From contig JAZBRS010000020.1 of the NCBI GenBank assembly GCA_037176725.1, positions 101,822,501 through 101,886,500 of the forward strand: 64,000 bases of DNA, read 5' to 3'. The notes below the pieces were generated by a model. It ran no database searches. It saw nothing but the letters and a program-made list of their open reading frames with translations, and was not told where the DNA came from. A program made the position numbers and the translations under genes. Positions 11,265 to 60,917 of this stretch are shown piece by piece (position 1 is the first letter of the stretch; each line of letters opens with the position of its first letter). The stretch comes from Posidonia oceanica. Lineage: Eukaryota; Streptophyta; Magnoliopsida; Alismatales; Posidoniaceae.

Positions 11265-11321
11265 GGAACCATATAACAAAACAAAGACAATCACCATCTT
11301 ACGATCCACCAACTTCAACCA

Positions 11322-12701
11322 ATGCATCGTTACCCATGCTCTCTCTCCTCCATTCTTACGATGTTGTCCCTCCTCTTCTTGGAGGCAACATTTGTCACCA
11401 TCTCCGCATCCACCACCACTGCATTTAGCCTCGAGCTCATCCATATCGACAACGAGAAATCCCCATTCTACATCGCCAACCTTACCAACCAAGAGAAGCA
11501 CCAGAGACTTCATGGGCTCTCCGAATATCGAATGCGATGGCTGGAATCCTCCATCACCAACAATGCCACATGGCTTCCAACTGTAACACGAAATCTGAGG
11601 GGCTTACTCCAGCTTAGGGCAAAGATGAAGCTAAGCGTCACCGGCACTACCCATCTGGTGAAAGTCGGCATCGGCACACCTCCAAGAATGTACCATCTCG
11701 AGCTTGATACTGGTAGCGACCTAGTATGGATACAGTGTGATCCAGTCTTGAGTGGTTTCAGTCAAGCAGATCCCCGCTTCTTTCCATCCAGGTCTCGGAC
11801 CTACAGGAAGGTCTCTTGCCCGAACCCTCTCTGCCAACCTCCTGCGTTTGAGTGCGCTCAGAATAGGTGTATTTACAATCGACGATACCTTGACAGTGCC
11901 ATTACCGGTGGGATTCTCTCAAGAGAGACGTTTACGGCCCCATCGGTTCATGGAAACCAAGACACCACGGTCGAGAAGAAAGCCTTCGGTTGCAGCCGCA
12001 AAACCCGTGGTAGTTTTCCTCCCGAGGTAGCCGGAGTAGTCGGCATGGACTTTGGACCCGTTTCTTTTGCGTCACAATTGGCACGACGATTCTCCTACTG
12101 CTTGCCAGAGAGACAAGGCGTTGCCACTTCTCTTCGATTCGACGATGACATTCCTGGACCACGTGGCACGATGATGGCATCCACCCCTATCATTCGACAG
12201 CCGGGGAAGAACCATTTCTATATGAACTTGCAAGACATCAGCATCCTTGGCCGTCGGCTAAGACTTTCCCCGGGTACATTCGACATTGATCATCGCAATG
12301 TAGGTGGATGTGTCATAGATGGTGGATCTTCTCTTATGCACATCATCAGACCTGTTTATGACCTGCTAAGGAGCAGCATTGAAAGCTACTTCGAGCAACA
12401 TCACCTCGTATTGGCTGTTGATGCGGTGAGACATGCGATGCGTCTTGATCTTTGCTATGTCAAGAAGCAAGGGTTTAGAAACTACCCGAACATGGTTTTG
12501 CACTTCCAAGGTGCTGACATGGCCATTCCGGCCAAACGGTTGTTCATCATGGAGAACAGTTTGGGTGCATTCTGCCTTGCCATTATTCCTTCAAATGTAG
12601 TGACGTTAATTGGGAACTACCAACAAAGAAACGTCAGATTTATCTATAACATGGCAACGAGTGTTCTAGAGTTTGGCCCAGAGGATTGCAATGCAGATTA
12701 A
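11322..12701 (+). CDS. Nepenthesin/CDR1-like A1 aspartic protease, intronless, 459 aa
   Basis: This is an A1-family (pepsin-type) endopeptidase of the plant atypical group, expected to be secreted. Residues 9-30 form a hydrophobic signal segment. FSLELIHIDNEKSPFY (35-50) matches the propeptide signature of CDR1-like proteases. The first catalytic site is DTGS at 129-132, followed by the WIQC strand, and a Cys-rich nepenthesin-type insert follows (Cys166, 171, 178, 183). The second catalytic site reads DGGS at 333-336 instead of the usual DSGT or DTGT: the Asp is kept but the next residue is Gly (codon ggt; agt would be Ser). The first Cys pair of the insert after WIQC is also missing. The C-terminal core ends in a typical IGNYQQRN and FGPEDC region. 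The frame is complete and full length. It is host-gene-like among transposons. It could be catalytically weak or inactive. Confidence 0.9.
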   Translation: MHRYPCSLSSILTMLSLLFLEATFVTISASTTTAFSLELIHIDNEKSPFYIANLTNQEKHQRLHGLSEYRMRWLESSITNNATWLPTVTRNLRGLLQLRAKMKLSVTGTTHLVKVGIGTPPRMYHLELDTGSDLVWIQCDPVLSGFSQADPRFFPSRSRTYRKVSCPNPLCQPPAFECAQNRCIYNRRYLDSAITGGILSRETFTAPSVHGNQDTTVEKKAFGCSRKTRGSFPPEVAGVVGMDFGPVSFASQLARRFSYCLPERQGVATSLRFDDDIPGPRGTMMASTPIIRQPGKNHFYMNLQDISILGRRLRLSPGTFDIDHRNVGGCVIDGGSSLMHIIRPVYDLLRSSIESYFEQHHLVLAVDAVRHAMRLDLCYVKKQGFRNYPNMVLHFQGADMAIPAKRLFIMENSLGAFCLAIIPSNVVTLIGNYQQRNVRFIYNMATSVLEFGPEDCNAD

Positions 12702-24692: not shown

Positions 24693-26022
24693 TGTGGATA
24701 TGGGGTTTTCGGTTAGGAGAAGAAGAAGGCTTGCTTCTTTGTTTCTATCTGCTCCTTCTTGGGGTCCCTTTTTGTTGTATCTGACTTCTCCACTCCACGT
24801 GTGTCGAAGTCAGTATGATCGCCACTCTTGGTTTGCTTTCACTGGCCCTCGAGACGCCTTAGGGAGATGTGTGATGGTTGTGAGTTCAGCTACCTTGGGA
24901 CAACGCCTGCGTTGTCCAAGGATGCCCGTGCTTGTTGAATCTCTTCTTCTTTCTTCTTCCTCCTTGTATGACAAATGTTAACAAAACAAACAGAAATGAC
25001 ACAAATATGAATCAATATAGTGTAGTAACTTATTCAGAATAAATAAAAAAAGGACATAAAGAGACACAACGAAATACTTACCTGAGGGGTTTGATCCCCC
25101 CGGTTGCAACTAATGGAAATGTATGCTTAGCTACAACAATATATGAAATGAATATGCTTGATTATACTACGGAATTAAACATATGATATGAAAAGAGAAA
25201 AATTAAAGAGAGTCTCCTTTTTATCTATGCACGGAGTGCAAGACATGTCGACATGATGTTACTGACGACAAAGGGAGACTCAAGCTCTTTCAAAGACTCT
25301 ATCCACTTTCTCAAAGTTCTCTCAAAACGTGGTTTCTCTCTCTAGGGATCTCTCCACTATTTCAATTCTCAAGAATCTCACCTCTCTCTAAAAATCCGTC
25401 CCCCACCCTGTGGGGGTACCCCTGCTTTTATAGAAGCAGGGGAGGAATAAAAAAAGAATTGAATGAATAGACCAGCAAACTTTCCAATTCAGGGGGTGTT
25501 ATATGCTGGAAAACCAGCGAATAACGTTATACGTTGGGAGTCTAGCAGATAACGGCCTCCGAAGCACAGCTGCCAGGATCAAGGAATATCCCCTAATTAA
25601 AACTCGATTAAATGTCATTAAGCTAGTGTTAATTGCATTGACTGGTCAACAAAGTCTAAAGAAGGCAAAAACATGAATTTTGTATTTGACCAAATAAAGA
25701 AAGTTTGGGGCTGACTGGGTTACCACGTTAGACGCTGGAAAACCAGTGGCCAATGTTAGCCGCTGGAAAACCAACGGCCAACGTTATAAGCTGGGAATCC
25801 AGCGTATAACACCCTCAGTCAGTCCATCTTCCTAATTTGGTCAAGAAATAAAGAACATTCAAGTTGTTGACACTTGAGGCTTAAATAGGGATAACGTTTT
25901 GAACTGGAGAATGGATGTTTGGCTCAAGTGAGATGCCTTAGATTGAGCAAAGAGCTTCTAAGGGCGACCCAATGCAATAGACTATACTACTATGCAGGGA
26001 GTGCCAAAACGGGGTATCTACA
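24693..26022 (-). repeat. 3' LTR of element A
   Basis: On the plus strand it starts TGTGGATATGGG and ends GGTATCTACA, paralleling the ends of element B's LTR. The adjacent sequence tattgctcctccttgaag is homologous to the polypurine region of B. A TATA box in minus orientation (complement of gcttttatag) is at 25424-25433. A primer-site-like tgatcgccactc is embedded at about 24815-24826. Flank gtagt (24688-24692) should be the target duplication. Confidence 0.7.
25498..25810. repeat. Five 28-bp inverted-repeat modules in element A's LTR (U3)
   Basis: Exact 28-bp units occupy 25498-25525, 25526-25553, 25727-25754, 25755-25782 and 25783-25810. Each consists of two 12-bp arms and a 4-bp loop. Example left arm GTTATAAGCTGG, right arm CCAGCGTATAAC; 11 of 12 positions pair. 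The units abut head-to-tail in groups of two and three. They lie upstream of the LTR's minus-strand TATA box. Confidence 0.93.
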
Positions 26023-26040: not shown

Positions 26041-26204
26041 ATGGCTTCGGCACGAAGCTATCTACAAGGCGAGACGATACTCCCGTGTGGCGCTACCTAG
26101 AGATTCTAAATGAAAACCAATGCCTGCTGCCACCAGACTTGGACAAGACACAAAGAGGGTCGACTAAAGAAACACGGCCAAGGGCGTTGCCCAAGGGGAA
26201 CAAA

Positions 26205-26405
26205 CTAAAGACATGTCCACGGGGGTTGCTTGCAGGGGTCAAACTAAAAGACTTGCCACAGGAATTGCCCGCGGGGGTCAAACTAAAAGACTTACCACGG
26301 GGGTTGCCCGCGGGGGTCAAACTAAAAGACTTGCCATGTGGATTGCCCACAGGAGTCAAACTAAAAGACTTGCCACAAGGGTTGCCCGCGGGGGTCAAAC
26401 TTAAA
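26205..26405. repeat. 39-bp tandem repeat, five units
   Basis: Units with gacttgcc starts lie at about 26210, 26250, 26289, 26328 and 26367. The period of 39 bp (13 codons) keeps a frame open on both strands, producing a Leu/Pro/Gly/Lys repeat peptide that is probably not a gene. It is related to the larger array at 27181. Confidence 0.92.
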
Positions 26406-26614
26406 AGATGGATAGTTAATGTCTCCGACGACCACTCAATGCAAATGCGATACAATGCGAATGCAATACAATGCACTATGCATGGATGCATGCTAACAGG
26501 AATGCGAAGGAGGTGATCATGATATGCAATGCTTTAATTTGTATACTGGGTTGGCTCAGGAATTTTTCTCACTACCTAAGGCGGACTGACACATGCGAGA
26601 ATACAATTTGTCAT

Positions 26615-27100
26615 AATCAGGTGCCCTTTCATCAAGTGTAGCTTACACTCTCCATAGGGACCGTCGTCTTATGATACGCGGGTTGGTGAGCGAGAGGTCC
26701 ATGATTCTCCCAGGCAAAAGGAGATTGATTTCTTCTCTGCTAGCCGCGTTGGCTCTATTTGTCATAATCAGGTGTCCTTGCATTGAATGTTGCCTACATT
26801 CTCGACAGAGACCATCGTCTTGTGATCCGGGAGTTAGTGAATGATGGGTCCACTAATACCGTTGGCTTGATTCGCCAAAATCAGGTGTCCTTTCATCGAA
26901 TGTTGCCTACATTCTCGACAGAGACCGTCATCTTCCGACCTGGGAGTTTTGAGTGATGGGTCCACTAATACCATTGGCTTTATTCACCAAAATCAGGTGT
27001 CCTTTCATTGAATGTTGCTTACATTCTCGACAGAGACCGTCATCTTCTGACCCGGGAGTTAGTGAGCGGTGGGTCTACTAATACCGTTGGCTTTACTTTG
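26615..27100. repeat. About 113-bp tandem repeat, four units
   Basis: Units opening aatcaggtgtcctttcat start at 26615, 26766, 26879 and 26991. The last two periods are 113 and 112 bp; the first is longer and more diverged. Element B has a single homologous copy near 41036, so the block expanded in A's family. Confidence 0.88.
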
Positions 27101-27180
27101 TTGACCCGGTGGTGCTCCGGGGTACCTGCTTTTGGATTGTTTGCTTTGCTAACCCGGTTGTGCTCTGGGATTCTTTAAAA

Positions 27181-28515
27181 GACCTGCCGAGGGGACTGCC
27201 AAGGGGGTCAAACTGAAATTTAAATGACTTGCCTAGGGGATTGCCCAAGGGGGTCGAACTGAAATTTAAAACATGACTTGCCGAAGGGATTGCTCAAGGG
27301 GGTCGAAATAAAACATGACTTGCTGAGGGGATTGCCTAAGGGGGTCGAACTGAAATTTAAAACATGACTTGCCTAGGGGATTGCCCAAGGGGGTCGAAAT
27401 AAAACATGACTTGCCGAGGGGATTGTCCAAGGGGGTCGAACTGAAATTTAAATGACTTATCGAGGGGATTGCCCAAGGGGGTCGAACTGAAATTTAAATG
27501 ACTTGCCGAGGGGATTGCCCAAGGGGGTCGAACTGAAATAAAACAACGACTTGCCGAGGGGATTACTCAAGGGGGTCGAACTGAAATTTAAATGGCTTGC
27601 CGAGGGGATTGCCTAAGGGGGTCGAACTGAAATTTAACATGACTTGCCGAGGGGATTGCCCAAGGGGGTTGAAATAAAACATGACTTGCCGAGGAGATTG
27701 CCCAAGGGGGTCGAACTGAAATTTAAATGACTTGCCAAGGGGATTGCCCAAGGGGGTCGAACTGAAATAAAACATGACTTGCCGAGGGAATTGCCCAAGG
27801 GGGTCGAACTGAAATTTAAATGACTTGCCGAGGGGGTTGCCCAAGGGGGTCGAACTAAAATAAAACATGACTTGCCGAGGGGATTGCTTAAGGGGGTCGA
27901 ACTGAAATTTAAATTACTTGCCGAGGGGATTGCCCAAGGGGGTCGAACTGAAATAAAACATGACTTACTGAGGGGATTGCCCAAGGGGGTTGAATTGAAA
28001 TTTAAATGACTTGCCGAGGGGATTGCTGAAGGGGGTCGAATTGAAATAAAACAATGACTTGCCGAGGGGATTGCCCAAGAGGGTCGAATTGAAATAAAAC
28101 ATGACTTGCCGAGGGGATTGCCTAAGGGGGTCGAACTTAAATTTAAATGACTTGCTGTGGGGATTGCCCAAGGGGGTCGAACTGAAATAAAACAACGACT
28201 TACTGAGGGAATTGCCCAATGGGGTCGAACTGAAATTTAAATGACTTGCCTAGGGGATTACCCAAGGGGGTCGAACTAAAATTTAACATGACTTGCCGAG
28301 GGGATTGCCCAAGGGGGTCGAACTGAAATAAAACATGACTTGCCGAGAGGATTGCCCAAGGGGGTCGAATTGAAATAAAACATGACTTACCCAAGGTGGT
28401 CGAACTAAAATAAAACAACGAGGGGGTTGCCCCAAGGTAAAGCCGAAATAAAAGTCACCAAGGGGATTGCCTAAGGGGAAGCTGAAATAAAAATCACCAA
28501 GGAGGTTGCCCAAGG
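27181..28515. repeat. Minisatellite of 41-48-bp units, about 30 copies
   Basis: The consensus opens gacttgccgaggggattgcc, continues with caagggggtcgaactg and ends with either aaatttaaat or aaataaaacat, so two unit variants are interleaved. The last three units (from about 28420) are shorter. Long open frames on the minus strand repeating LGNPLGKS-like peptides are a by-product of the period and not genes. Confidence 0.95.
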
Positions 28516-28597
28516 GGATAAAAGAATACTTCTTTGGCTTTGTTTGCCCGGTTGTGCTCTGGGATTCTTTGATTTGCTCTCAGTTCTGCTTTGGTTC

Positions 28598-28681
28598 GTT
28601 GGACGCTGGATTTGTGGCATTCAACGTTGGACAGATTAAAAGCCGCGGCTAACGTTGGACGGCAAGACGGTTGCGTATAAC
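28598..28681. repeat. Three contiguous 28-bp GTT...AAC modules upstream of PMD gene 1 of element A
   Basis: Units 28598-28625, 28626-28653 and 28654-28681 each start GTTGGAC and end AAC. They abut exactly. Arm pairing is weaker than in the LTR copies. A candidate TATA (ctatattaaa) for the following gene lies at about 28783. Confidence 0.9.
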
Positions 28682-28854: not shown

Positions 28855-30204
28855 ATATGCAAGGAGTTGCGCTTCCTCTCATGGATTTGAACGATATCCC
28901 GCGTCATGCTTTTCAAGTGGCTGTCTTTTCTTCTCCTTCCGATACAGTGCAACTTCGGCTGAAGGCTATACCTAATCACTTGGCGAACCTTTTGGTGCAT
29001 GAGAAGGTATTTTCCGCTTTTGTTATTACTCCATGCTCTTATTCTTGTATCCTTTTATTTCTGCTGATTTTTCTACTCCATAACCCTTGGCTTCTACAAA
29101 TAACAACCGCGATTCGAAAGCCTACCAGTTGGACTGGGTTCAGCACTTTCGTTCTTGGGCGTTGAAGAAGTATCGGGAGTGCTTGGAGGAGGCTAGCCTT
29201 TGTCAAGCTCTCCATCAATTGCGGCAACCTGTTGACTGGAAGGTGCTTTTCGGCCTCTGCGGGCTGTGGAATCTTCTGACCCACACATTTTCACCTATTC
29301 AGGGGAGTTGACTATTCTTTTGGAGGAGGTGAGCGTCCTTTTAGGCACTCGACAAGCCGACCTGTCCATTTATTGCAGAGACACCTATCTTTTGCCAATC
29401 GGGGTGGTAGGCTCTTTCTCTCTCTTAAAGTGCATCTTCGGCCCTATTGTTGTGCTGGAGGACCTGGTGCTAGACGGCTGTATCAGCCTTGCCTCTTTGT
29501 GGAAGTTTTTCTGGAAGCAGCGCGATAGCATCCGTTCCAAGGCTTCTTGCTTGGAGTGCATCTTCATTCTGATCGGGGGGCTGGTACTCTTCCCAAATGA
29601 AGCCCTAACCATCAGCGCCTATCATGCTGAGCTCATGTGCATCTGTGTTCGCAACCTGGAGAAATGCTTGAGTCAATCTGTGTTGGCTTTTACTATCTAG
29701 GGCTTATCCAGTGCCTGTCTCGGGGAACTGTTCTTCGGCTCACCTTTCCTAGTTCTACGCTGGCTAGAGGAGCATTTCCTGCTGTCTGCTCTTGATGCCA
29801 ACCTTCCCTTGGAGGAGTACATTCGCCGACTATGTGCCTATGAGGTCAAGCCCCAGATGGACTCCTTCAGTCCTCCTTCGTCTTTCAGGACAATGTCTAA
29901 CCCAGAGTACTTCCTAACGCTGATTGGGGTGACTGAGTTTGTGAGGTACAACCCCCAGCGATGCTTCTCGATGCTGGGCACTCCCCGAGCCATACCTCCC
30001 TTGCCTCGTTTCTCTGACATGATTCTCCCGTGCTTGAGAGGCACCCCTGGGGACATCATTCAGGTTTTTTACCAGGCTGGCACTTGGGACGGGAAGGGAT
30101 GGAACCATGTCCAAGCCATCTCCCTTGCTACTCATGATGCTTGGTATGAAGGCGTGAGGCCTAAATTATTTATTGAGTTTCCTACGAAGAAGCGAAAGTT
30201 GTAA
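28855..30204 (+). pseudogene. PMD-like additional gene 1 of element A, antisense to the element
   Basis: A short first exon (ATG at 28855, or an upstream one at 28767) encodes an N-terminus ending LANLLVHEK. A gt-ag intron follows to about 29100. The second exon carries a plant-mobile-domain-like order: a WKVLFGLCGLWN segment, then LTILLEEVSVLLG, which matches the W-x-LL-x-AL-x-x-W and LT-x-EDV-x-x-LLGL pattern of aminotransferase-like PMD proteins. Helical segments follow and the C-terminus is basic, PTKKRKL, a likely nuclear signal. Damage is light: one frameshift near 29270 and one in-frame TAG at 29698. It lies downstream of 28-bp modules, which suggests its own promoter. Function is unknown. 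Confidence 0.7.
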
Positions 30205-30335: not shown

Positions 30336-30485
30336 GTTGGATGCGTGAACTGCTGCGTCCAATGTTATCCGCGAGGGTTCCTGCGTATAACGCTTTCCCT
30401 TCTTTGGAGCGTTGGCCGCGTCAGTTTATGCGGACAACGTTTCAATGCCTCCAACGCGTTGGACGGCCCAACTCACGTGTATAAC
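30336..30485. repeat. 28-bp modules upstream of PMD gene 2 of element A
   Basis: Full units lie at 30336-30363, 30364-30391, 30411-30438 and 30458-30485. A 19-bp short form occupies 30439-30457. For example GTTATCCGC at the start of one unit pairs with GCGTATAAC at its end. The last unit ends about 10 bp before a TATA box (tataaaa, 30495-30501). Confidence 0.93.
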
Positions 30486-30494: not shown

Positions 30495-30501
30495 TATAAA
30501 A
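30495..30501 (+). promoter_or_regulatory. TATA box of PMD gene 2 of element A
   Basis: tataaaa sits immediately downstream of the module array and about 135 bp before the ATG at 30634. Confidence 0.6.
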
Positions 30502-33489
30502 CCTTCGTCCTACGCAACGGGCAACCACCTTTCCTTCTCTTCTCCTCTTCTCCGGCAACTGCGAGCTCTCCCTGACCTCCAGCGAACTCGGCGTGCGGTG
30601 GTCTCTTCATTCCTCTCTCCTTTCTTTGTGAAAATGCAACGGTTTGGCAAGGTATACATGAAATCGGCAAAGCGTGCCCAAACGGGACCTGGGCCGTCAT
30701 CCCCCAGTGAGCTTGGGGCAGCTCCGACAGAACCCCCGGTGGTGACAGAGGTGGTGACGATGGTTGTGGAGGGCATGGCCATGGTGGGCACGGCTATGGT
30801 GGCTGAAACGGCTGAGGTGGTGCCTGTGGGCACGACGGTGGAGGTTGGAACGGCCAAGGTGGAGCCTGTGGAGGCGGCGGTGATGGCCGTGGAGGCTGCG
30901 GAGGTGGCGGAGACCACGGAGACTGGGACGGTGTCTGAGGCCGTGGTGGTGGGTCCGGCTACTGTGGAGGCCGGCAAGGCGGTTCCGGCTACTGTGGCAA
31001 GTCCAGCTACTGTGGAGGCTGGCAAGGCAGCTGGCGGCTAGGCCGCGAAGGCCGAGGCGGAGCTGGGTTCTGGTTCTAGCAGCTCCTTAAGCTACGAGGA
31101 CTCGGAGGAGGAGTCCGAGGAGATGGTCTTGGAGGTGAGGTTCGAGGCTGGTTCGGACGAGGCGGGCCCCGTGGTGGAGCCAGAGGCGAGGCCGGTCGAT
31201 CCCGTCATTGCGCAGTTCGGTGAAGATGACGGCTGATTGCGGAACATGGTGGATTTCGTCTGACAGGAGGCAGAGGGTGGTGCAAGGGATCCCCCGGACT
31301 ACTGGTGGGACCAGATCCCTTGAGACGAGGTGCAGGTGTCGGGACCGTGCAGGGACGCGTCTCGATTGGAGTATGCTACCGCCACATTAGCCTCGAGAAG
31401 GCAGGTAGTCACCTTTCACTTTTCGCTTGTTTGATTTAAATATTTAGCTTGATTGACAGCCCCTCCATTTTTTTATTTTTGCAGAGTCGAGCACCTACCG
31501 TGACCCGCTGCTACTGGGGACAGGTCCACCGGTCCTATGCCTTGCTGGCTCCCTTCTAGCAGGAGCATCTGGATCGGATGGGATTCGGACACTTCCTGTC
31601 CATCCCGGACTTCCCCCTCCGTCCGATGTTCTTGGAGGCCGTTGTGGAGCGATGAAACTTCCATACCAACTCGATCGTCACGAGGGCGAGTGAGTTTATT
31701 CTTTCTCTTGAGGACATGGTGCGGCTGACCGGTCTACGGGTCACAGGTCGGCTGGTGACGAGGTGGGTGCGCTTGGACTACTCGGTCTTGGCGCGGGAGC
31801 TCGTCGAACGACAGCTGGCTATGAGCAGGCAGTAGCTCGTGGTGATTACCTCTGCTGTTCGCCGAGTCAGTGCTTTGGTGGAGACGGTGGTTGGACCGGG
31901 TGTGGAGGCTGATTAGCAGTTGCGGGCCTTCTTACTGGTGCTATTCGGGGAGGTGCTCTTCTCGCACGCCTCCTCGAAGTTGTCTGCGTGGTTCCTCCCC
32001 CTCCTGGCGGACTTGGAGTGAGTGGGAAAGTATGCTTGGGGTGCGGCTAGCTTGGCGCACCTGTACTCCACCCTCTTCCACTTTACAGATGGCAGTTCTC
32101 GCCAGCTAGGCGGGAACTTGTCGTTTCTTCAGGTAAAAATGCATGCTTTAAATTTGTAACTTTCAGAAATATTGTTGGACATTATGTGTTACTGAAAGCT
32201 TCCTCGTTTTCTATGCAGATGTGGGCATGGGACCACTTCGCTTTCTTGTGTCCTACCCCTCCTCCAGTTCCTCCAACCGGCGTTCCTTTCCCCTGAGGAT
32301 TATTCTAGGCTGATGCTGAGCAAGCCCTTGAGCCTGTGGATGACAACCGCTATGTTGGTCGCCTGCTTTTCGAGTTGCTAATCCTGGCTCAAGTAACTTG
32401 CTTCTTTCGATTTTTCTGCTTATTCATTTATGCTGCTTGCTAACCTATATTGCTCCCTTCAGGTGATCTGGCGTCCATATGATGAGGGAGGGCATGCAGA
32501 CGTCTCTGAGATTGCCCGTGATTGGGTAATTTTTGACTGAGATGTGTGGATCCACTGCTGGAACCACTACCATTTCCAGCAGACTGGCAGGGTGCTACGA
32601 CAACTGGGGCGCCGGCAAATTTAGCCTCTACCTCCCCCTCACAGGGTTTGGCGAGAGACTCGGGGTGGAGGTAGCTGTGCTCGTCACTGGGCGGATGTCT
32701 ACGGTCCGCAGCTCCTAGACTAGACTTGCCATGGTTCTCCCGCTCCGACAGACGCGATAGAGGAGGATGAGGTGGTGTGGGCCGAGTGGATGGACCGAGA
32801 GTTCTCTTCTTTGGTGGTCTTCCACCGGTCCCACTTCCTTGGGCGCGGGAACCTTCCTTTGGGGGACACAGATCCCGGGGAGGCAGTGATGTCCCGTGCA
32901 GCTCTGTTGGGTGAGGCGCGGTCCTATTGAGCCGAACTGGAGATAGCGGTGAGCTTCTGAATTTTTAATTTGTAACTTGTGATTCACATTTTGATAACTT
33001 GCTGACTTGCTTTCCTTCCTTCGTAGCTCAAGGTGGCAGATGAGCGGGCTCAGCAAGAGCGTAGTCTGACTCAATAGCTCTCCGCTCTGACCAGAGAGAT
33101 CGAGTGCCTGTGCGCTTCCGCCTCTCAGGTATCTTTATATTTCTTGTAGCTTTTATAGTCTGATTATGAACTGTAGCTGACTGTATTTCTTTTCTTTGCA
33201 GCCCTCAACTAGCACCGCCCCTCCTCCGGACCATTCAGAGGAGATCTCCCATCTCCAGGATAAAGTATAAATCTCTTTATTTTTCCTTTCTGCCTTTTAG
33301 CTGAATTCTCCCTGGTTCTGACATTACCGCTGTTAACACCCCATTTTTGACTCCTGTTTAGTAGCTCTCTCTCTCTCTAGTGGAATGACTTAGAAAACCC
33401 CCACACAAAAAACCAGAAAATTAAAAACTTAGAAAACTAAAACAAAACCCTAGGTTAAAAACCTAGGTAAAAAGCCATCTAAACCCTAG

Positions 33490-34130
33490 AAAAGCACTAG
33501 GTCACAAAACCTTTCCTTCCCCCTATTCCATCTTCCTTTCTTTCTTTCTTTCTTTCTTTCTTCCTTTCTTTCTTTCCTCTCCTTTTCTTTCTTCTTCTCC
33601 TATTTCTTTTCTTTCTCTTCCTTTTAAATCAATTCAATCCAGCCCACCAACTCCTCCTTCCTCCTTATTTTCTTTTTTTTCTCTCTTTTTAAACCAAGCC
33701 CAGCCCACAGCCACCAACTCCTTTTTTTCCCTTTTTTTTCATTTCAACCCAGCCCACCAACTTCTCCTCCTCCTTTATTTTCTTTTTTCTTCTTCTTCCA
33801 AAGCCCAAGCCCAAGCCCCCAACTTTTCTTCCTTTTCTTCTCCTTCTCTTCTTCTTCCTCTTCCCTTTTTTTTTTCTCTTTTTTCCTCTCCTTTTCCCCT
33901 CCTTCCAGGCCCAGCCCACCTTCTCCTTTTCTCTTCCCTTTCTTTTTCTTTTTTTCACTCCTTTTTTGCTGGCCCGACCCGTTTCCTTTATTTTCTTTTT
34001 TTTCCTTTTTCAGCCTCCAGCCCAGCCCACGGCCTCCTTCTCCTTCCTCTTTTCTTTTCTTTTTTCCACAGCCTGCCCGACACTCCTCTTCCTCCTCTTT
34101 CCCTCCTCTTTCGAAACCCAACACCCAACA
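33490..34130. repeat. Pyrimidine-rich low-complexity tract with (TTTC)n
   Basis: About 640 bp with strong pyrimidine bias on the plus strand, including a clean TTTC run at about 33536-33560, punctuated by agcccagcccacc blocks. Open frames on both strands here are artefacts. Confidence 0.9.
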
Positions 34131-35216
34131 CTCAATCCCTCTACACTCACCACCCCTCACACCAACTCCCAGCAACCCACACTCCACCTCTGCCGCACGC
34201 CACTATCCGACGGTGGCCGTCTCACAGGACCACCCATGCCCTCTGCCCAACACACCACCATTACCCTGCCAGCCACCTTCAGCTCCTGCACGCCCCATTC
34301 CCACTCAGGTGCCCAGCCTAGAATAAAACCATCCATCCTTATCTCTTCAGAAGGTGGAAGAAGAAGAATTCAAAAAAAAAACCACAACCAGAACCCATTT
34401 GCTCCCACACAGCATAGTAACCTCCCTTCTTCCTCCGAGCACCCCAGCCACTCACAACCTCCACAAGCACCTCCATCCTCTTCCTCAGCCATCCACCAAT
34501 CTAGAGAGACATCCACAAACACCTAGAGAGCCACAGACCGCCGAAGAGAGCTAGAAATTCACAGTGCACCCAAAAATTCGAATCCCAGTTTTGCACGGCC
34601 AAACGGTCTTCTGGATAGCTCTGGACCTTCCTCACGACACCAGGAATCGCCTCTGATCGCCGCGCGTAGCCACCGTCGCCCGTAGCGCCGCCGCGACCTC
34701 CACCTGCACTGTCGAACCCACCTAAGGTCGACGGCCCTCCTCAACCATCGTCACAGGTAATCCAAGCTATATTTAAGTTCTTTGCATGCTTCTCGTGCTT
34801 CCTAGGCAATTAGAAATAGGTTTAGGGCTTTAGTGCATCGTTTCACCTTCGCCGCTACAATCGTCTTCTCTAGCGAGCCTCTGCAGCGCCGCGGCGCTCC
34901 CGGCCAGCTCCGTTCCTGCCGACCGCACCCCGAGCTTCGCCCAACCTCCGGTAGCTCAGCCCTGTACTCCCCGAGCGCCACAGCTGCTTCCAGCACCAGC
35001 TCCGCCCACAGCAACCTTCTGCAGAACTCCGCCGAGGCCGGCAGAGCAGCCCAGCCGCCGGCGCCTCTGTGGAGGTCCCCTCCAGCTTCCAGGAGCCCCA
35101 ACTTGGCCAGAGACCCGCCAACACCGTCGCAGTAGCTTCTTCTTCCCCGGCGATGGTGCTGAAGTGTCGGGCGACACTGTAGCACTATAGCAAGCTAATG
35201 TTATAATTTTGTTTTG

Positions 35217-36650
35217 GTTTGATGCATTGAATTAAATTACAGCAAGTTATTTTATTTACTTTCAGGTCCAGCTTTCAATTGAAATCATTTAATTTCTGCT
35301 TTTAAATTTACTGCATTACATTTCAGTCCTCAAGTATATTTATTTTGCATGTTAGTCCTGCAGTTGGTTTGAAAATCATTTAATCTAGAATTAAAATCAT
35401 ATTGCATTGAATTAAAATGTTGCAGGTTTTCATATTTACTTTCTAGCCCTCTTTCAGTTGATAAATCATTTAAATGTCATTAGAAACATATTGCATTGAA
35501 TTAAAATGCTGCAGGTTTTCATATTTACTTTTTAGTCCTATTTCAATCGATAAATCATTTAAATGTCATTTAGAATCATATTGCGTTATGATAAACTACT
35601 ACATGTTTCATTTATTGCACTTTAGTCCACAAACCATGCATTTAATCATTTAAATCACATTTTTTATCTTACTGCATTACATTTTAGTCCAACATTTTAG
35701 TTTAATTGCATATAAGTCTAGAGCATGCATTCACAGCATTTAAATGTCATCTTTTATCTTAATACATTGCATTTTCATCCTGTCTTTTATTTCATTTGCA
35801 CATCAGTCCTATTCTGTTGTAGATTTCGTTTAATTCATGTTTTAAAACTATATTGCATTGCAGAAAAATCCAAAAATATGTTTTAATTGCATGTTAATCC
35901 TATCAATTGTGAATCAGTCATTTAATTTTGCATTTTACCTTACTGCATTGCATAAAAATCCAGAAAAATATTGTAATTGCATTTAAGTTTATCTACAGTT
36001 CATCATTCATTTAATTCTGCATTTTAACCTTATTGCATTGCATAAAAGTCCAGAATCATGTTTTAATTGCAAATCAATCATCAGAGCATTCATTCATGTC
36101 ATTTAAATCTGGTTTTTTATCTTATTGCATTGCAGAAAAACCCAGAAAAATGTTGTAATTGCATATCAGTCCATATTGCTTTGAATCACTCATTTAAATT
36201 CTGTTTGAACTATATTGCATTGTTGTTTCGTCCAATAACTTGTTTTTATTGCATTTAGGTCCAATTTGCATCCATACATCATTTAAGTTGCATTTTTGAA
36301 CCATATTGCATTGCTTAAATGTCCTCCATGTTTTTAAAATTACATGTAGGTCCTTTTATTGCTTTATCGCATGCCCGCCTTTTGTTTAACATTGTATTTG
36401 GCTCCATACTCTGCTGCATCTACATTTTAGCATGCATTTGTCTTGTTGCATTGCATTTTGCCATGTTTTTGCATGTAGGCCCCTGCATTTTATTCTAATT
36501 GCCTTTAGGCCCCTGTATTTCATGTTTTTGCATGTAGACCCTGCATTTTATTCTAATTGCACTTAGACCCCTGCATTTTCCTTTAATTGCACTTAGGCCC
36601 CTGCAGTTCTCTGTAATTGCACCTAGGCCCTTGTCTTTGCATCTTTACAT
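35217..36650. repeat. Tandem repeats inside the 4.5-kb LTR
   Basis: About a dozen diverged units of roughly 90 bp, with a ttgcattgaattaaaatg core and a tagtcc box, run to about 36360. Then from about 36470 come shorter units of about 35 bp with core ttaggcccctgcatttt. Confidence 0.8.
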
Positions 36651-38408
36651 GCATAACATCCCCGTATCATTCCATACTACACCATTGCACTTGTTTGAGC
36701 ATTGTTAGCCTCATTGCATGTAGGACACCCTGCATTGCACACACATAGGGGTCATTTGCACTTAGGCCCCCACTTAGATCACTTTTTCTGGTCCTTGAGC
36801 CATCTGACTTGAAACCTGAATAACTTTTGATCGGATCATTGGATCTTCACGATCTAATTATTCAGGTCTTCCTGGTTGAATGATCTTTCATTCTAACCAA
36901 AGTTATTTCAGATCAGGCCTCAGATCTTCAAGATAAATCCATCTGAATCACTACATATCACTTATTGCTTGTCACTTTCACTGCATGCATTGTTTTCGTG
37001 CCCTGCTTTCTCGTGCATGTAGATTAGGGTTTTCCGCCCCTATTTTCTTCCCCTTTGCTTGTTTTACACTTGCATTGTGTGGTTTTACTTGGCTTTTTTG
37101 CCCTTGTCTCCTTTTCCCCTTTGCAAGTTGAACTTGCAATGCGTGGTTTTATCGGCGTTTTGCTTTACCGCCTGCATTTGCATTAGGGCAGTGATGCTTA
37201 CTGTCTGGAGTTCTCACGAACTAGGGTTCACCTAGTTCGGAACACTGACAACGCTGCTGAGCACATAGGTTGCATGTTTATTTTCTTCGTGCATCACATC
37301 ACTTAGAGCGTACATTTGGGCAAATAATCACAACATACATGGCATTTAGCCATTCAGGCATACCTTTTAGCAATCATAGCATGGCATTAGCATTCCTCGT
37401 CCCTTGGACGTGTGGTTAAAGGCAATCACTTGTCGAATTCCTACAAATGCGAGCATTTAGCCAAGAAAGACCGATTCCAGGCATGTAGGGGGTGCCTAAC
37501 ACCTTCCCTGCACGTAACAGGAGTCCTTGCCCTTTCTCTGGCCTATAGTGACCATTTTGCCCTCATCCTTGGCACGAGTCATCCATTTCGCATAGCATTG
37601 CATTCATTTGCTTGTTTTCTATGCTTTTCCTTGGTTTTCCTCGCCTTCCCAATAATAGACTAGGTGGCGACTCCCTTTTGTCTTATCTTTTTTTTATTCG
37701 TGTTTTCCCGGTGTTTTCGAGTTGAGTTTCTCCTTGGATTCGTTGCTGATCGCGACTTCCCTCCCTCTCTCACGGCACGATCGCATCGCGAGCTATGGCA
37801 GCGTTGCGAGGCCCGCCGTGGGCCCAAGCGGCGGATGGTCACAATCGCTTGTAGGTTGCTTATCTGGAGAGTGAACTGAAGGAGCAGGCTGGTGACTTCA
37901 TTGCTGCTAGCTTCGTTGGGAGGTTGGAGGAGCTGGAGGGGACCGTTGCTTCTCAGGCTGCTCGGATCTGGGAGTTGGAATAGCAGGAGGGGACTGTTGC
38001 TTCTCAGGCTGCTCGACTCCAGGAGCTGGAGCAGCAAGGTGCTGACAGGGATGCTGAGATTGCCCGGACTCAGGCAGTATGATTTGATTCAGCGTTCTTT
38101 TATTTCTACGTCCCTGCTTGTGTTTGATATTTTGATCATTTCCTTTCTCAGAGTTTGCGAGGCACGAAGGTGTTCGCCTCTTAGCTTCAGCAGAGCTAGG
38201 GCACTACCGGGTGTATGCCTACGAGTCTAGTGCCAGGTTGGGGGAGACCGTTCCTCCTGCACCGAGCTACCAGTCAAGTAGCCACCGCTCCCGATCTGTT
38301 TCCAGGGCTCCGTCGGGCCTTTCCGTTTGTCAGTCGCCTTGGCCTCCTACAGCTCCTTCTCCGGCTCCTCCTTCAGCTCCTAAGGATGAGGGAGAGAGTG
38401 GTTCTTAG

Positions 38409-38849
38409 TTCTTGTACTTCAGGGGTATGCCCCGGTGATCTTGTAGAACAGTTATATTTTGAAATGATATAGATTTCTGCGCACTCAGCAAAACTAGTCA
38501 AATGTCTCTTTTAAAATACCTTTCTCGGAGTTAAAATGAACTTAAGTGACCAATATAGCAAAATAATGGCCCTTAATTCAAATTAACTTGAAACCAGCAT
38601 ATTCATGTGAAATAAGATGTAAATGGCATAGTTGTAAAGAAAGATTTCACCTGGAAGCTTTAAAATCAAGTTTTGAAGTTGTCGACGCCTTAGCGAGCCA
38701 TTAACTTGATGAAATGAGTAACCCATGATTCTGAATGACCCGGATGTCCAAAAAAATATGAAACCAACACTCACACATGTATTTCAACTTACTTAAACCC
38801 ATGGGACTGATAAAAATGGTTTATGCAACTTAATCACAGATTAGGGGGT
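38409..38849. other. Spacer of element A left of the element B insertion
   Basis: This is the 3' flank of PMD gene 2 and nothing coding was recognised. It continues at 60874 once element B is removed. Confidence 0.6.
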
Positions 38850-40428
38850 TGTAGTGTGGAATTTGGGGGGTGTGTTTTGAGAAGATGTCGGCGCTTCCAC
38901 GTACATCGTCAACTCCGTTGTGATCGCCACTCGCCTTTGGGTAGACAAGACACCTGGGGGGAGATTATGATGATGTGGGTCCTCGGACCACTAGATCGAC
39001 GGCAGGATATCGTCTAGCGGCTTCCTCATGCTACATAAATTCCTTCCTTTCCTTCAAAACAAAACAACATAGATCTAAATTAGCTCAAGTGCAGTAGTTA
39101 GCAACCGAAGTGAATGAAACGACATAACTAAAAGAAAACAAATACTGACCGGGGGTTGTTCCCCGCATGCATATGCTATGGGTCCTATGTTAAGGAATGT
39201 AAAAAAATGCAGTAAGAAATTAGATTGGAGGAAGATACTCCCTTTCACCCTTATGCTGTATGCAATGAGGTTGGAAGGAAGCACGGTCGGAGCTCTGGCG
39301 TAGTTGAAGATTTCTGGGATCGAAGGTAGAAGCTCAAGTTGGTAGCCTATTGGGGAGAGGAGATAGAGTTTCTGGATTGGAAATCTAGCTCTCTGAAGGT
39401 GGCTCACAACTAACAGGGCTCTACCTCTTTTGGAAATTCCTCTCTGGGGGAAGGATTTCTCTCTCAAAAATTCCGACCAGGGGGGATTTCTCTCTCAAAA
39501 ATTCCGACCCTCAAACCACCAGCCTAGAAGGTCTATTTATAGACTCTAGGGGGTGAGGACGGTTGGAGTTCAGAAAATTCTAGAAAAATGGCAATTAAGG
39601 TTAGTCACCGGTTCAGGTGGCGACTAAGACTAGCAACCGCTTAGTCAAAGTGTGGGAGGACCCGGGAACGAGGCCATGACTGTTAGTCGCTGGTTGAGCT
39701 GGTGCCTAACGGTCGAGGGGGGAGTGGGAAATAACTATGGAAGAGTGGTTCAAAAGGAGCCACGATTGTTAGTCGCCGCATGGAGTGACGCCTAATGGTC
39801 AAGGATCGTGGGAAGACCGAGGCAGTTCCATAACCGCTCAGCTGCCTGATGAGCTGGCGCCTGAGGGTTGAGGGGATCATGGGAAGCAACCGCTGCCCAC
39901 GATCGCCCAGTCGCCTTTCCAGGTGGTGTCCAGGTGGGTCGCCTCCTCAGATGGCTTTTGACTGAGGCGCTTCCTCAGATGGCTTCTAGAGAAGTCTGCT
40001 AGGCAATGGGTGATGGGCCTAGTTGCTGCTTTAGGTGGCAACTATATGAGTCACCTCCCCAACTGGCTACTATCAAGCTTAGGTCATTTCTAGCCCTTTT
40101 TCCGGATTTTTGTCAAAGGAAACATGATAGAAGGCCGGAAAACTACAGATAGTCTATGAAATCAAGGAGGCATCTCTGTTAACTCAAATCTAATTTTAAA
40201 TCTGAGTAGAAGTGAAGGATACCCAGGGTACTCGGACTTGTTACGAGCCTAAGTGAGTTAGCCCTGCCACAGCCAACAACCTGAGTCTAGGTAGGATCAA
40301 ATGATGCTTTAAAGAAGTCAAGGAATATCTGGAAGACGCGTTATCAAAACTTAGGCACGAGATTTGGGGCGCCTCAAGGTTTCTACCTTCAAAAGAACTC
40401 TCAGAAATGCGAAAATAGGATATCTACA
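38850..40428 (-). repeat. 3' LTR of element B (1579 bp)
   Basis: It begins TGTAGTGTGG and ends GATATCTACA on the plus strand. A minus-strand TATA box (complement of tctatttatag) is at 39531-39541. It carries a 33-bp internal duplication around ggatttctctctcaaaaatt (about 39450-39500) absent from the other LTR. A primer-site-like tgatcgccactc is embedded at 38921-38932. Confidence 0.96.
39601..40073. repeat. Nine 27-bp inverted-repeat modules (9-9-9) in element B's 3' LTR
   Basis: Units start at 39601, 39683, 39769, 39838, 39907, 39935, 39963, 40019 and 40047. A 19-bp short form occupies 39628-39646. Best example: arms TTAGTCACC and GGCGACTAA around ggttcaggt, which becomes a perfect pair, TTAGTCGCC with GGCGACTAA, in the other LTR. 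Each unit keeps 9-bp arm, 9-bp spacer, 9-bp arm. They lie upstream of the LTR's TATA box. Confidence 0.94.
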
Positions 40429-41268: not shown

Positions 41269-41323
41269 TTAGTCGCCTTTGTAATGGGCGGTTGTGCTAG
41301 TCGCCGGTTGTTGGGGCGACGTG
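41269..41323. repeat. Two 27-bp modules upstream of PMD gene 1 of element B
   Basis: Units 41269-41295 (arms TTAGTCGCC and GGCGGTTGT) and 41297-41323 (arms CTAGTCGCC and GGCGACGTG). A gataaaag TATA-like box follows at about 41384 and the gene's ATG is at 41450. Confidence 0.92.
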
Positions 41324-41449: not shown

Positions 41450-42808
41450 ATGAAGCTTCCTTCCTTCTCTTCTTCGACCTTCCAAGTGAAGAGGGTGGTT
41501 GATATCCCCAACCACTTGATGAAAGCTATCCGAGATGATCAGGTATGTCCTCCTCTTGGTCTTTGCATGCTTTCTTTGTGGTTTAGCCTCTGAAGGTTGC
41601 TTGTTTAGGCCGTAGTGAACCTCACGGGATGCCCGGATTTCCACAATTCTTTTCAGTATACTCTACCGTGGGTGGCTGGCTTGATCATTCATGCAGAGAA
41701 TAACAGGCATCTCTTCGGGTGTAGTGGTTTCGACAAGCTACTTGATTTGATTCGCACGCCTGCGCCTTGGCCACTGTTGCATGCCTTGATGGCTTTCTGG
41801 AATGGTTCTTCCAATACCTTCAATCTTCCTTGTGGGGAGACGTTGATCACATGTGAGGAGGTGTCCTCTTTGCTTGGGTTGGCGGCAGAATCTACTGAGG
41901 CTGCAGATGATCGCTTCGCCATTTCTGTTGAGACAGTGGGCTCCAGGAAGATAGGCAGGTATCTAGCAATGGATCAGGAGGCTAGCAAGGCTTTGATGCA
42001 CTCGGGGAGACTCTTTCTTTGAGGCCTGTGGGAGGTTCTTAGCACCAGGCAACTTGCTGAAGCTAAGCTGAGGAAGTGCTTGTTTGTAGTAGTCGGCGAC
42101 CTTGCCTTGTTTGTAGATGCAAATTTCACAATGGATCTTCACCATGTGGATCTCCTGATGTTGGTGGCTGTTCGTCCAGATTTGTGCTTGGCTCCTACTG
42201 TGTTGGCTTACACCATGGAGGGGCTCACCAGTGCCTCTTGTTCAGGGAAATTCTTTGGTTCTCCACTGCTGCTACATAGGTGGTTCATGTCTCATTGCTG
42301 TTGTGATACAGATTTTACAGGCTTGAGCTTCCATGACTGCATTCTCCGCCTTGGACGCTTGTCACTATAGGATTTTGACTTCGTTCCGAAGCTGCCTGGA
42401 GATCATAAGGCACGGGTGATGAGCACAGTTCACAGTGACCTTGAGCTCATCCTGGTGGGTGCCACATCGTTAGTATTGTATCCCATCCATCGTTGTCCAC
42501 GTCTGCTGAATCAGGAGCTAGTTGTCCAGGCTGATGCAGTTCTGACCCCTCCGATCCACGTTCGCAAGGAAGATGATGACCGGGATGAGCGGATGGTCTT
42601 GGAGTACATTGCACGTTGGGTTTACATTGGCAGACGAGTGTCTCTAAGTGCGCCTTGGCTTTCTGCAACTGCTCGGGAGTCCTAGGAGGCGAGGTATGTG
42701 AAGTGGTATGCACGGTGCTGCCCCACTCCTCAGAAGTATGTTGATGACAGGCGGGAATTCCTGAAGATGCTTGGGCTCAACTACTCGAGCATGGCAATGC
42801 ATGGTTGA
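41450..42808 (+). pseudogene. PMD-like additional gene 1 of element B, antisense to gag-pol
   Basis: Exon 1 (41450-41542, 31 codons) encodes a short N-terminus ending LMKAIRDDQ. A gt-ag intron covers 41543-41608 and exon 2 starts at 41609 in phase 0. Exon 2 contains APWPLLHALMAFWN and ETLITCEEVSSLLGL, the W-x-LL-x-AL-x-x-W and LT-x-E-x-V-x-x-LLGL pattern of plant mobile domain (aminotransferase-like) proteins. A further conserved block is PLLLHRWFMSH. The frame is continuous to 42808 except for three nonsense codons (42020 TGA, 42368 TAG, 42683 TAG). Each is explicable as a C-to-T change of CGA or CAG. It is homologous to the genes at 28855 and 61275. Its role is unknown; nuclear DNA association is inferred from the family. 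Confidence 0.75.
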
Positions 42809-43012
42809 TTTAAATGTTAATTTTAAGTTGAGTTGAATCATGTCTTAGTTTTAAGTTCAAGTTTGGGTTGAATTATGTTTCTGTCCTTGAATTTGAGTTT
42901 GGGGTTGAATTACATTTTAGCTTCTGAGTTGTGTTTTGTCATTTGTTAATGTATAGGCTTGTGTTTTAGAGGAGATTTGAAGGAAGAAACCCTCTGCTGT
43001 TATTAGCCGCCG

Positions 43013-43178
43013 CTCAATATGGCGTCTGGACCAGTCGCCTCCTTTTAGGGCGTCCAGTGTCGCGCCTCCCTTGAGGGTTCAAACTGAGGCGGGAAAGTTG
43101 CCGCGTGCGATGCTGAAGGGTCAGTCGCCGATTACGGAGGCGCCCGTCTGAGTCGCCTCTTCTTCTGGCGACCAGGGT
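43013..43178. repeat. 27-bp modules upstream of PMD gene 2 of element B
   Basis: Clear 9-9-9 units start at 43013 (arms TTAGCCGCC and GGCGTCTGG) and 43041 (CCAGTCGCC and GGCGTCCAG). Two more follow in about 43120-43178 (TCAGTCGCC with GGCGCCCGT, and TGAGTCGCC with GGCGACCAG). They precede the putative first exon of the next gene. Confidence 0.9.
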
Positions 43179-49485: not shown

Positions 49486-50620
49486 TCAAGGGTAGTACCT
49501 TTTCAAGTGCATTGCATTCCAAGGGTCAGGAAGATCTGTTCCGTTATGGGACAATCGATAAGCGTTCCTTGGATATACAGCAACCACTATGTAGGGTCCT
49601 TCCTAGTTTGGCTTTAACTTTCCCTTAGGGTGGGGCTTATTATAAGGCAACACTTCTTTAAGCACTAGATCACCAATTTTAAACTTGCGTTCAATTACTT
49701 TCTTTTGATAAGCCTTGGTTAACCTTTGTTGGTAGACACGCGTATGCTCAGCGGCTGCCAGTCATTTCTCATCAAGGAGTTCTAAATGAAGGAGTAAAGC
49801 TTGCCTCTTTTTTTCGGCAGACATTCTCCTATCAATCTTAACTCTTAATGAGGGGATCAGGATCTCGTATGGGACCACTGCTTCCATACCAAAGGCTAAA
49901 GTATAGGGGGTTTGACCCATTGCCGTCCTTATGGTGGTGCAGTATGCCCACAACGCATTAACAAGCTTATCTGACCAATCCGATCCCTTAGCGTCTTCTA
50001 CCGTCTTTTTAATGATTTTGATTAAGGTTTTATTAGTAGCTTCTGCTTGACCGTTCCCTTGCGGGTAATACGGGGAAGAGTGGTGTAGAGTGATACCAAA
50101 TTTTCAGCATATCAGCTTGAACTCTTCTAAGATGAAGATCAGTCCGTTGTCTGCTACCAAGACTTTAGGCACCCCAAACCTTACGATGATATTTCGCTAT
50201 ACGAATCGGCACAGGGTTGTGGTCTTGATGCTTGCGAACGCCTCTGCTTCCGCCCATTTGGTGAAATATTCTATCGCCGTTAGGATGAAAGTGTTGCCCT
50301 TTCTCTGATGGATGGGTCCTACCACATTGAAGGCCCACATGGAGAAAGGCCATGGTGTTGATAAAGCGTGAAGTGCTGAAGCTGGAGCATGGATCTTGTT
50401 GGCGTGCAGTTGGCGGCTCTTGCACCGCTTGACTTTACTTGCATAGTCGGCTTCCATGGTAGGCCAGTAGTACCTCCTTCTGATGATCATTTTAGCCATG
50501 AATTGGGAGTTGATGTGGCCCCCACAGATTCCCTCATGCGTTTCCTTGAAAATCTCGGCTGACTCAAATGCATCCACACATCGGAGTTCGATCCCTAGGG
50601 GTGTTCTCCGAAAGAGTGTG
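49486..50620 (-). other. Integrase domain of element B pol
   Basis: It starts with an HEGICGGH zinc-finger start and a degraded CKSR in place of CxxC. The catalytic triad positions are Asn (50326-50328, expected Asp), Asp (50149-50151, in VADNG) and Glu (50041-50043, in GQAEA). The C-terminal part has a GDLVLKE segment and no chromodomain, as expected for Tat. Stops include a TGA in the LDEK-LAAAEH context at about 49759. Confidence 0.9.
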
Positions 50621-50829
50621 TTGGCTCTAATGTAGTACTTTGTAGCCATCCTCCTCAGTGTTTCTCTGTCCTTGGGAGTCGCATAGGCTGGGAAGGCGCG
50701 ATCTTGTACATAATTCTGTATGTCATAATACCACGGGTTGCCATCGTCATTTACTTCTGTAGCTCCTTGATAATACACCTCTGTGCATATTAAGCTTTCC
50801 TGGTTTAGTTCTTCTCTGAGTTCTTGAAC

Positions 50830-51375
50830 CCATTCAGTGGTAGACCCCACTGTTGGAGTGTTGGTTCTTCGCACCATAATGGATTGCTCGTCTGCCTCTG
50901 AGCTGAAGGGGAGCGAGGATGCCAATGAGGCTAATGAATCAGCCAGGATGTTGTTGCTTCTAAGTGCGTGCACGTACATAACCCTATCAAATTTCTTTAG
51001 TAAGGCTTTAGCTAGGTTGTGGTATACCTGCAGTTTTGGCGAGAGGGTCTTGTATTTGTTGAGGACTTGTCGTATGACAAGCTGTGAGTCCCCAACCACT
51101 TTTAGTCTTTTTGCCCCTAAATCGAGAGCCATTCGGAGTCCTAGAATGAGTGCCTCGTATTCTGCAATGTTATTACTCACTGAGAAGAGTAGTTGAGCTG
51201 CAGTGGGGAGAACAATACCCTCTGGAGTGACGAGTGTTGCCCCTACTCCGGCGCCCTGTGAATTAAGTGCTCCATCGAAATAGAGAATCCATTCTCTAAT
51301 GAGTGGCTTGACACTATTGATTGCCAGTATTTCCTCGTCTGGGAAATCTATTGATACTGGCTGATACTCTGACAC
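50830..51375 (-). other. Archaeal-type second RNase H domain
   Basis: It reads WILYFDGALNSQGAGVGATL, then YEALILGLRMAL and VVGDSQLVIRQV, giving the Asp, Glu and Asp of an RNase H fold. Position between RT-RH and integrase marks the Tat lineage. Confidence 0.88.
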
Positions 51376-51435
51376 AGGTAGCCCGGTGAGTTGATCCGCG
51401 ATAGCTTGCCCCTTGACCGCTTTCTGAGTGATGAA

Positions 51436-60873: not shown

Positions 60874-60917
60874 GGGGTGATCCAGCCAAGTTCAGTGAGT
60901 TAAGTCACTGATAAAAC

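Follow-up and report, generated by a model that had tools for sequence, protein, structure and literature searches.

Of the 13 Sirevirus consensus RM boxes printed in PMC2829016, which are 10-20 bp long, 12 have a CGG-CCG core with short intervening stretches, and in maize the palindromes of Sireviruses have been proposed as a trigger of small RNAs and silencing (PMC10760457, citing Bousios 2016). The target motifs of VANC proteins evolve by tandem repetition together with the protein (PMC5735166, PMC10398659). For the antisense genes of plant Ty3/gypsy elements, the function of which is called unknown (PMC7264820, PMC11963269), a regulatory, DNA-binding role has been proposed in the case of Retand, where an antisense TRP28 domain (PF04195) occurs in 97% of clusters (PMC11963269). 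These sources are cited, here and below, for the portions of their text that were available.

The locus considered here is a stretch of 64,000 nt from Posidonia oceanica (GCA_037176725.1, contig JAZBRS010000020.1, 101,822,501-101,886,500, forward strand), referred to as the window; for this stretch the original prediction had proposed at least 20 units of exactly 28 bp in five arrays, matching no named feature. All 20 units were found at the predicted positions, with 5 in 25498-25810, 3 in 28598-28681, 4 in 30336-30485, 4 in 60918-61049 and 4 in 62813-62939. As for a named feature, a literature search outside subscription papers and supplements found no description of these modules, and among the matches listed for papers containing the half-site 9-mers none was, by title, on plant transposons; the Sirevirus RM boxes (PMC2829016) and the VANC target arrays (PMC5735166) are, however, close precedents in the available text of those papers.

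Anatomy and setting of the 28-bp unit

The unit is composed of a 9-bp half-site, GTTRKMCGC, a weakly conserved gap of 10 bp and the inverted half-site, GCGKMYAAC. With up to three mismatches, the pattern GTTRKMCGC-N10-GCGKMYAAC finds 20 matches in the window, where shuffles lead one to expect 0.21; 19 of these fall within the arrays and one elsewhere, at 47552, and the pattern misses the unit at 62813. Leave-one-out matrix scores of the window units range from 11.2 to 30.9 bits. The claimed constancy of unit length and framing is thereby supported, and 28-bp units do abut head-to-tail as proposed, but the interval in the LTR is broken by a spacer of 173 bp (25554-25726), and the supposed short forms of 19-20 bp act, judged by start-to-start distances, as spacers and not as short units. 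The irregular distances between window units are 47, 47, 48 and 43; in all loci assigned to element A (see below) successive unit starts are 28 apart in 106 cases, 43-48 apart in 23, and 29, 55 or 91 apart in 7. Tandem Repeats Finder reports a period of 28 at U3 modules 3-5 (25727-25810). The junction palindrome AACGTT was considered as the unit and rejected, because arrays begin with a GTT-like and end with an AAC-like half-site and because isolated units exist. Substitutions within the CGC part of the half-sites are mainly C to T or G to A, a bias that would fit the decay of methylated CG sites.

The arrays lie in element A, for which a Tat-type setting had been proposed. In Tat-type Ty3/gypsy elements, pol contains two RNase H domains ahead of the integrase. 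Pol domain order and antisense genes both support the assignment: element B, which is nested in A, has dual RNase H pol pieces at 50200-51909, with RT_RNaseH followed by RVT_3 and Integrase_H2C2, and the similar pol of element A lies beyond the window (L007 4226-5925, minus strand; L numbers denote fetched loci), being 57-76% identical to that of element B. Between pol and the 3' LTR lie antisense genes, which are PMD-like and on the plus strand, with pol on the minus strand; protein searches found PMD relatives. Element A itself is in minus orientation, and its antisense genes begin at 28.9 kb on the plus strand; the insertion of element B splits it, and to the right of B it resumes. Matches to the gag-position ORFs of element B, which are gag by position only and have no Pfam match, are present in L007-L008. 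The features of element A in the window are as follows, with strand where one applies:

24693-26022 (left edge approximate), minus strand: 3' LTR of element A (Tat-type), from LTR homology and its right end
25425-25433, minus strand: LTR promoter TATA box CTATAAAAG, 65 bp from the nearest module
25498-25553: U3 modules 1-2, gap 10, from pattern and matrix
25727-25810: U3 modules 3-5, gap 10, from pattern, matrix and Tandem Repeats Finder
28598-28681: array 1, three modules upstream of antisense gene 1
28784: TATA-like box TATATTAAA of antisense gene 1
28857-30204, plus strand: antisense gene 1, PMD-like, interrupted, start codon read directly
30336-30485: array 2, four modules upstream of antisense gene 2
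30634-33270 (extent approximate), plus strand: antisense gene 2, PMD-like, degenerate, TATA box at 30495
60918-61049: array 3, four modules upstream of antisense gene 3
61275-62622, plus strand: antisense gene 3, plant mobile domain, TATA box at 61163
62813-62939: array 4, four modules in the interval that separates the 3' end of gene 3 from the 3' side of pol

The LTR homology covers 24693-25300 and 25407-26022 against L028, and the right end, 'tatctaca', read directly, adjoins a polypyrimidine stretch. Antisense gene 1 has no Pfam match of its own and is 37% identical over 103 aa to the protein at 61642; in antisense gene 2, 31470-31751 is 39% identical to the PMD protein at 45486; and antisense gene 3 matches PF10536 at 61642-62385 with E=5.7e-6, at 26.2 bits and so below the curated cut-off of 34.9. 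The same plan is seen in L011, a relative without B at this place, which has the LTR array, array 1, PMD gene 1, array 2, gene 2, array 3 and PMD gene 3. In L016 three further sites lie in the leader, between the 5' LTR and the gag-position ORF, and a donor-like AAG/GTGAGT at L016 5880 suggests that these modules are in or near a leader intron.

Several other sequences share the window. Tandem repeats of 39, 46 and 113 bp, without modules, occupy 26177-28518 between the LTR of A and array 1. Extra DNA is present within element A at 33300-38350, 37158-37541 and 63278-63610; the piece at 37.2 kb is similar, in inverted orientation, to that at 63.3-63.6 kb and to pieces of many fetched loci, and near pieces like it in L027, L030 and L031 there are gap-11 modules; these pieces are another repeat family. 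Outside element A, an open frame of 474 aa at 11277-12698 with TAXi_N and TAXi_C (aspartyl protease-like) is probably a host gene, and 3293-4000 is a Ty1/copia-type fragment with gag_pre-integrs and an rve match below the curated cut-off.

The units had been described as hairpin modules, and the arms of the five LTR units do pair, at 10, 8, 8, 10 and 11 of 12 positions. The window and L007-L031 together supplied 213 distinct gap-10 units, and when the arms of these were examined for covariation against 200 shuffles they proved nearly independent: pairing at the mirrored positions 1-9 is close to the expectation from independent columns, save for an excess at positions 4/25 (0.61 versus 0.50 expected, none of the 200 shuffles reaching its mutual information) and 5/24 (0.53 versus 0.44). 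In the 130 units without a TGG/CCA (LTR-type) centre the excess at 4/25 is gone (0.54 versus 0.50), and pairing at 5/24 is below expectation (0.32 versus 0.43), slightly beyond the shuffles. The strongest covariation is that of the centre of LTR-type units, which we read as shared ancestry, and since the arms are independent beyond this centre the module is a DNA dyad rather than a hairpin.

The mark of a structured RNA hairpin, compensation of a change in one arm by a change in the other, is accordingly missing from this set, and we regard it as improbable that the modules serve as RNA hairpins, be it as a packaging signal or as structures triggering small RNAs and silencing. The capacity of the LTR units to pair at 8-11 of 12 arm positions would suit such a role, as would the small-RNA excess of Sirevirus palindrome clusters (PMC10760457, citing Bousios 2016, in the text available) and the fact that U3 modules of the 3' LTR and leader modules would fall within the genomic transcript; besides the behaviour of the arms, however, transcription starts downstream of the U3 modules of the 5' LTR, and each of arrays 1-3 in element A precedes the TATA-like box of its antisense gene.

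Spacing of the half-sites and its change between families

The spacing between half-sites was followed through 2.96 Gb of the genome. Exact half-site pairs number 50,815 at gap 10 and 110,980 at gaps 11-17 together, against 397 in the sum of gaps 1-9 and 491 in that of gaps 12-20; at least 110,489 pairs must therefore be at gap 11, and the exactly spaced exact copies at gaps 10 and 11 exceed 160,000. Reversed-pattern controls of the four counts gave 0, 0, 0 and 1, and about 3 exact pairs per gap would be expected by chance if base frequencies are taken as equal. Viral contigs contained no exact tandem pair of modules. At closer range, L011-L026 have 173 half-site pairs at gap 10 and 20 at gap 11, with 21 in total over the other 40 spacings from -4 to 37, and of the 310 exact half-sites in the 309 kb of fetched loci, 304 are matched by an inverted half-site at gap 10 or 11. 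The fetched sequence contains 328 modules, compared with 1 in the reversed sequence; 72 of the 328 are exact, and extrapolating from this fraction, in loci chosen by exact matches, the true number of modules in the genome is probably several hundred thousand.

Confinement of the modules to one Tat family had been anticipated and was not observed: element B, overlooked in the original prediction, has a module of its own, and a sister family, D, has a version of 29 bp, so that unit length is nearly fixed within a family and different between families. At L028 a copy of A stands beside a copy of D which continues into L032; 10 of the 11 units in the A copy are at gap 10, and 29 of the 30 in the D copy are at gap 11, the D units being distributed over the LTR, the leader and the region before the 3' LTR. 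When 16 A and 5 D LTR copies are aligned, the U3 is homologous and D has one additional central base at all four homologous modules; the window copy and the D copy of L028 share a sub-array spacer of 173 bp, a length that varies in some other copies. Over the loci assigned by hand, A has 209 gap-10 and 9 gap-11 units and D has 52 gap-11 and 2 gap-10 units, in an assignment that was partly guided by spacing and left a few edge gap-11 units out of A; we therefore rely on the single-locus comparison and the LTR alignment as the clean tests. Half-site positions 4-6 read GGA or AGA in 94 of 108 cases in D, with a matrix that, as for all these units, was trained on A, and in A (n=436) they read ATA in 118, GGA in 89, GTA in 45, GGC in 39, AGC in 35 and AGA in 33.

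Mixed spacings also occur, as in the family at L027, with 11 units at gap 11 and 3 at gap 10. Within A itself a gap-11 unit recurs in the leader (L016 7330, L022 7441, L015 2583, L008 1977, L024 2618 and L028 1664), where its neighbours have gap 10. The D copy extends over L028 5333-10000 and L032 1-9821, and its LTRs are 96.6% identical over the aligned 1.3 kb; it has a gag-position ORF match and one PMD-like antisense gene, and between its LTRs no match to the pol pieces of B was found.

Element B, the ends of which were likewise read directly, is flanked by a 5-bp target duplication, GGGGT, read directly at 38845-38849 and 60874-60878, and its module has the form TTAGTCGCC-N9-GGCGACTAA, with a 28-bp period in arrays (41269/41297, 43003/43031, 43121/43149). 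Its exact copies in the genome number 2,082 at gap 9 versus 5 at gaps 10-18. In the window the pattern with up to three mismatches has 14 matches versus 0.20 expected, and a matrix built from 12 of B's own units places 26 of the 27 window units above threshold inside B, with a control rate of 0.5 per 64 kb. The TTAG-CGC of the B half-site is common to the A half-site (TTRKMCGC), and by this the two modules look related, though distinct in letters and geometry. The features of element B are:

38850-60873, minus strand: element B, nested in A, with LTRs at 38850-40428 and 59328-60873 that are 94-95% identical by self-BLAST
39601-40073: B-type modules, 8 units, in the U3 of the 3' LTR of B, upstream of a TATA box on the minus strand at 39541
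41269-41323: B-type modules, 2 units, upstream of B antisense gene 1 (PMD-like match at 41810-42493)
43003-43175: B-type modules, 4 units, upstream of B antisense gene 2 (PMD match within 45486-45998, E=2e-16)
58205-59074: B-type modules, 5 units, between the gag-position ORFs and the 5' LTR
60046-60490: B-type modules, 7 units above threshold, 5' LTR of B

Placement of the arrays

It had been proposed that the arrays lie upstream of the LTR TATA box and of each antisense gene. Both placements are found, but the array at 62813-62939 precedes no identifiable gene; this array 4 and the leader sites are without a known adjoining promoter. In element A the distance from array to nearest TATA-like box is 65 bp in the LTR, about 100 bp for gene 1, about 10 bp for gene 2 and about 115 bp for gene 3. 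A TATA-like box stands beside 9 of the 14 arrays inspected, including all four in LTRs, and by pattern none was found for the remaining 5, namely array 4 of the window, both B antisense arrays, array 1 of L011 and the array of L032. Not one of the 328 modules overlaps a match to pol, PMD or gag-position ORFs, matches which cover 36,478 of 309,000 bases (11.8%) and hence only part of the coding sequence.

Conservation was compared at two levels. Among LTR copies the half-site columns have a conservation of 0.865, the inner columns 0.888 and the flank 0.827, so that a test for stronger constraint on half-sites than on inner bases came out against it. Units taken from different window arrays (159 pairs) have an identity of 0.32 in the inner 10 bp and 0.68 in the half-sites. 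That the arrays are a neutral minisatellite, a by-product of tandem duplication, could account for the first of these results and for the variation of unit number by whole units, one being missing from LTR copies in L013 (5001-5285) and L015 (5001-5295) and one extra being present in one L026 LTR (1276-1359); it is hard to reconcile with the contrast between window arrays, with exact spacing in more than 160,000 copies and with the absence of modules from the matched coding sequence, and we hold it to be very improbable.

Inverted half-sites at a fixed gap are typical of recombinase core sites, and the dyad layout of the modules is like them. Sites for an element recombinase, transposase or integration-related protein are nonetheless a most unlikely explanation, as the modules are in U3, leader and antisense upstream regions and not at the element ends, and among 19 ORF pieces scanned with Pfam no such domain was found in the A and B pieces besides those of pol.

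The U3 has a second palindrome, TTGACC/GGTCAA (25638-25649 in the window), which lies in the sub-array spacer and is kept in 20 of 21 LTR copies of A and D. We take it to resemble the W-box of WRKY factors, and its retention suggests that host sites are probably used in the U3.

A proposed reading and its relation to known systems

The modules are real and exactly spaced, their half-sites are almost obligately paired, they are placed in the U3 of LTRs, in leaders and before antisense genes, and half-site and spacing are specific to the family. Exact inverted pairing, independence of the arms, avoidance of matched coding sequence and repetition near promoters give them the look of binding sites for a symmetric dimer, and the lack of arm covariation beyond the LTR-type centre fits protein contacts made in DNA. 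On balance we lean towards reading the arrays as binding sites for a dimeric, family-specific factor, probably encoded by the element, that would act on promoters or chromatin; the factor is postulated from the pattern of its sites. A symmetric dimer of a family-specific DNA-binding protein would sit on each dyad, and the arrays would raise the occupancy of this putative binder. The binder would most likely be the product of one of the antisense genes: PMD-type genes are present in A, B and D, and the concerted switch of one base between sister families suggests that the binder changed with the family and is hence probably element-encoded. No DNA-binding fold was evident in the PMD-type genes by Pfam and two structure predictions, the AlphaFold models of two PMD pieces (mean pLDDT 38 and 46) being too poor to use. 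Binding may control or protect the sense LTR promoter and the antisense promoters together, protection here meaning anti-silencing, as by VANC for VANDAL, and the element would then form one self-recognising regulon; activation, autoregulation and anti-silencing are all candidate outcomes.

Rather unlikely, in our estimate, is the use of the modules as enhancers bound by host transcription factors, with different families recruiting different ones. A dimeric factor of MYB- or NAC-like type is one example of what might bind the dyads. Stress factors are used in this way by other plant LTR elements, modules stand beside TATA boxes at 9 of the 14 arrays inspected, and the same U3 keeps the W-box-like palindrome in 20 of 21 LTR copies; for the repeated motifs of Sireviruses their authors recovered, in the available text of PMC2829016, mainly host stress-factor sites. 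Against this, spacing differs by one base at 4 of 4 comparable LTR modules between the sister families, where the W-box-like palindrome, unlike the module spacing, is unchanged between A and D, and half-site preferences differ between A and D as well. A fixed set of host factors is disfavoured because it does not predict these shifts in spacing and half-sites.

Extending the reading of the arrays as sites for an element-encoded dimer, we tentatively suggest that each Tat-type family might possess a private operator code, made of half-site letters and a spacing exact to one base, which its own antisense-encoded protein would read so as to free or regulate all promoters of the element. A change in geometry, with the matching base change at every module, might then have divided a single family into two, neither of which recognises the other any longer. 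The exactly spaced target in the LTR and before antisense genes offers a testable candidate target for these genes, and gap-10 and gap-11 sister families in one genome are a ready-made comparison of specificity. Were a VANC-like system to operate in an LTR retrotransposon, sequence-specific anti-silencing would have originated in both great classes of plant transposons; the more than 160,000 exact copies could, moreover, seed regulatory sites near genes.

In the available text of the sources, the Sirevirus RM boxes are the closest structural precedent for the modules and the VANC targets the closest functional one. The Sirevirus boxes are likewise palindromic, element-specific, present in many copies and CG-containing at the core (PMC2829016), and they cluster upstream of the LTR TATA box with extra copies upstream of an additional ENV-like gene, an arrangement that recurs here. 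The modules differ in having half-sites of 9 bp that end in CGC and are separated by 10 or 11 bp, in units abutting at 28 or 29 bp, with GTTRKMCGC / GCGKMYAAC in place of a CGG-CCG core, and in being found also in the leader and before several antisense genes; moreover, Sireviruses are Ty1/copia elements, whereas the elements here have the Ty3-type order, with RNase H domains before the integrase zinc domain.

The VANC targets, as far as PMC5735166 and PMC10398659 describe them in the text available, are short motifs arrayed in non-coding regions (introns, intergenic and terminal parts) of one family and different between related families, and the modules too are arrayed in non-coding regions and differ between families, and the location of the latter in LTR, leader and intergenic regions resembles the localisation of VANC21 (PMC5735166). 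VANC targets are bound by a protein of their own element, with loss of methylation; they have the same orientation, however, and belong to VANDAL transposons, whereas the modules are inverted pairs (304 of 310 half-sites) in LTR retrotransposons, with a binder that is putative. Retand has TRP28 proteins and variable arrays of 8-100 bp, in contrast to the PMD (PF10536) antisense genes found here (PMC11963269); the scan of the 19 ORF pieces, in which the antisense genes are only partly represented, gave no PF04195 match at E 0.01, and PMD was found instead. A motif common to the LTR and the antisense upstream regions, as observed here, is absent from the available part of the Retand description (PMC11963269). 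What sets the modules apart from these systems is their exact two-state spacing and their use across the sense and antisense upstream regions of Ty3/gypsy elements.
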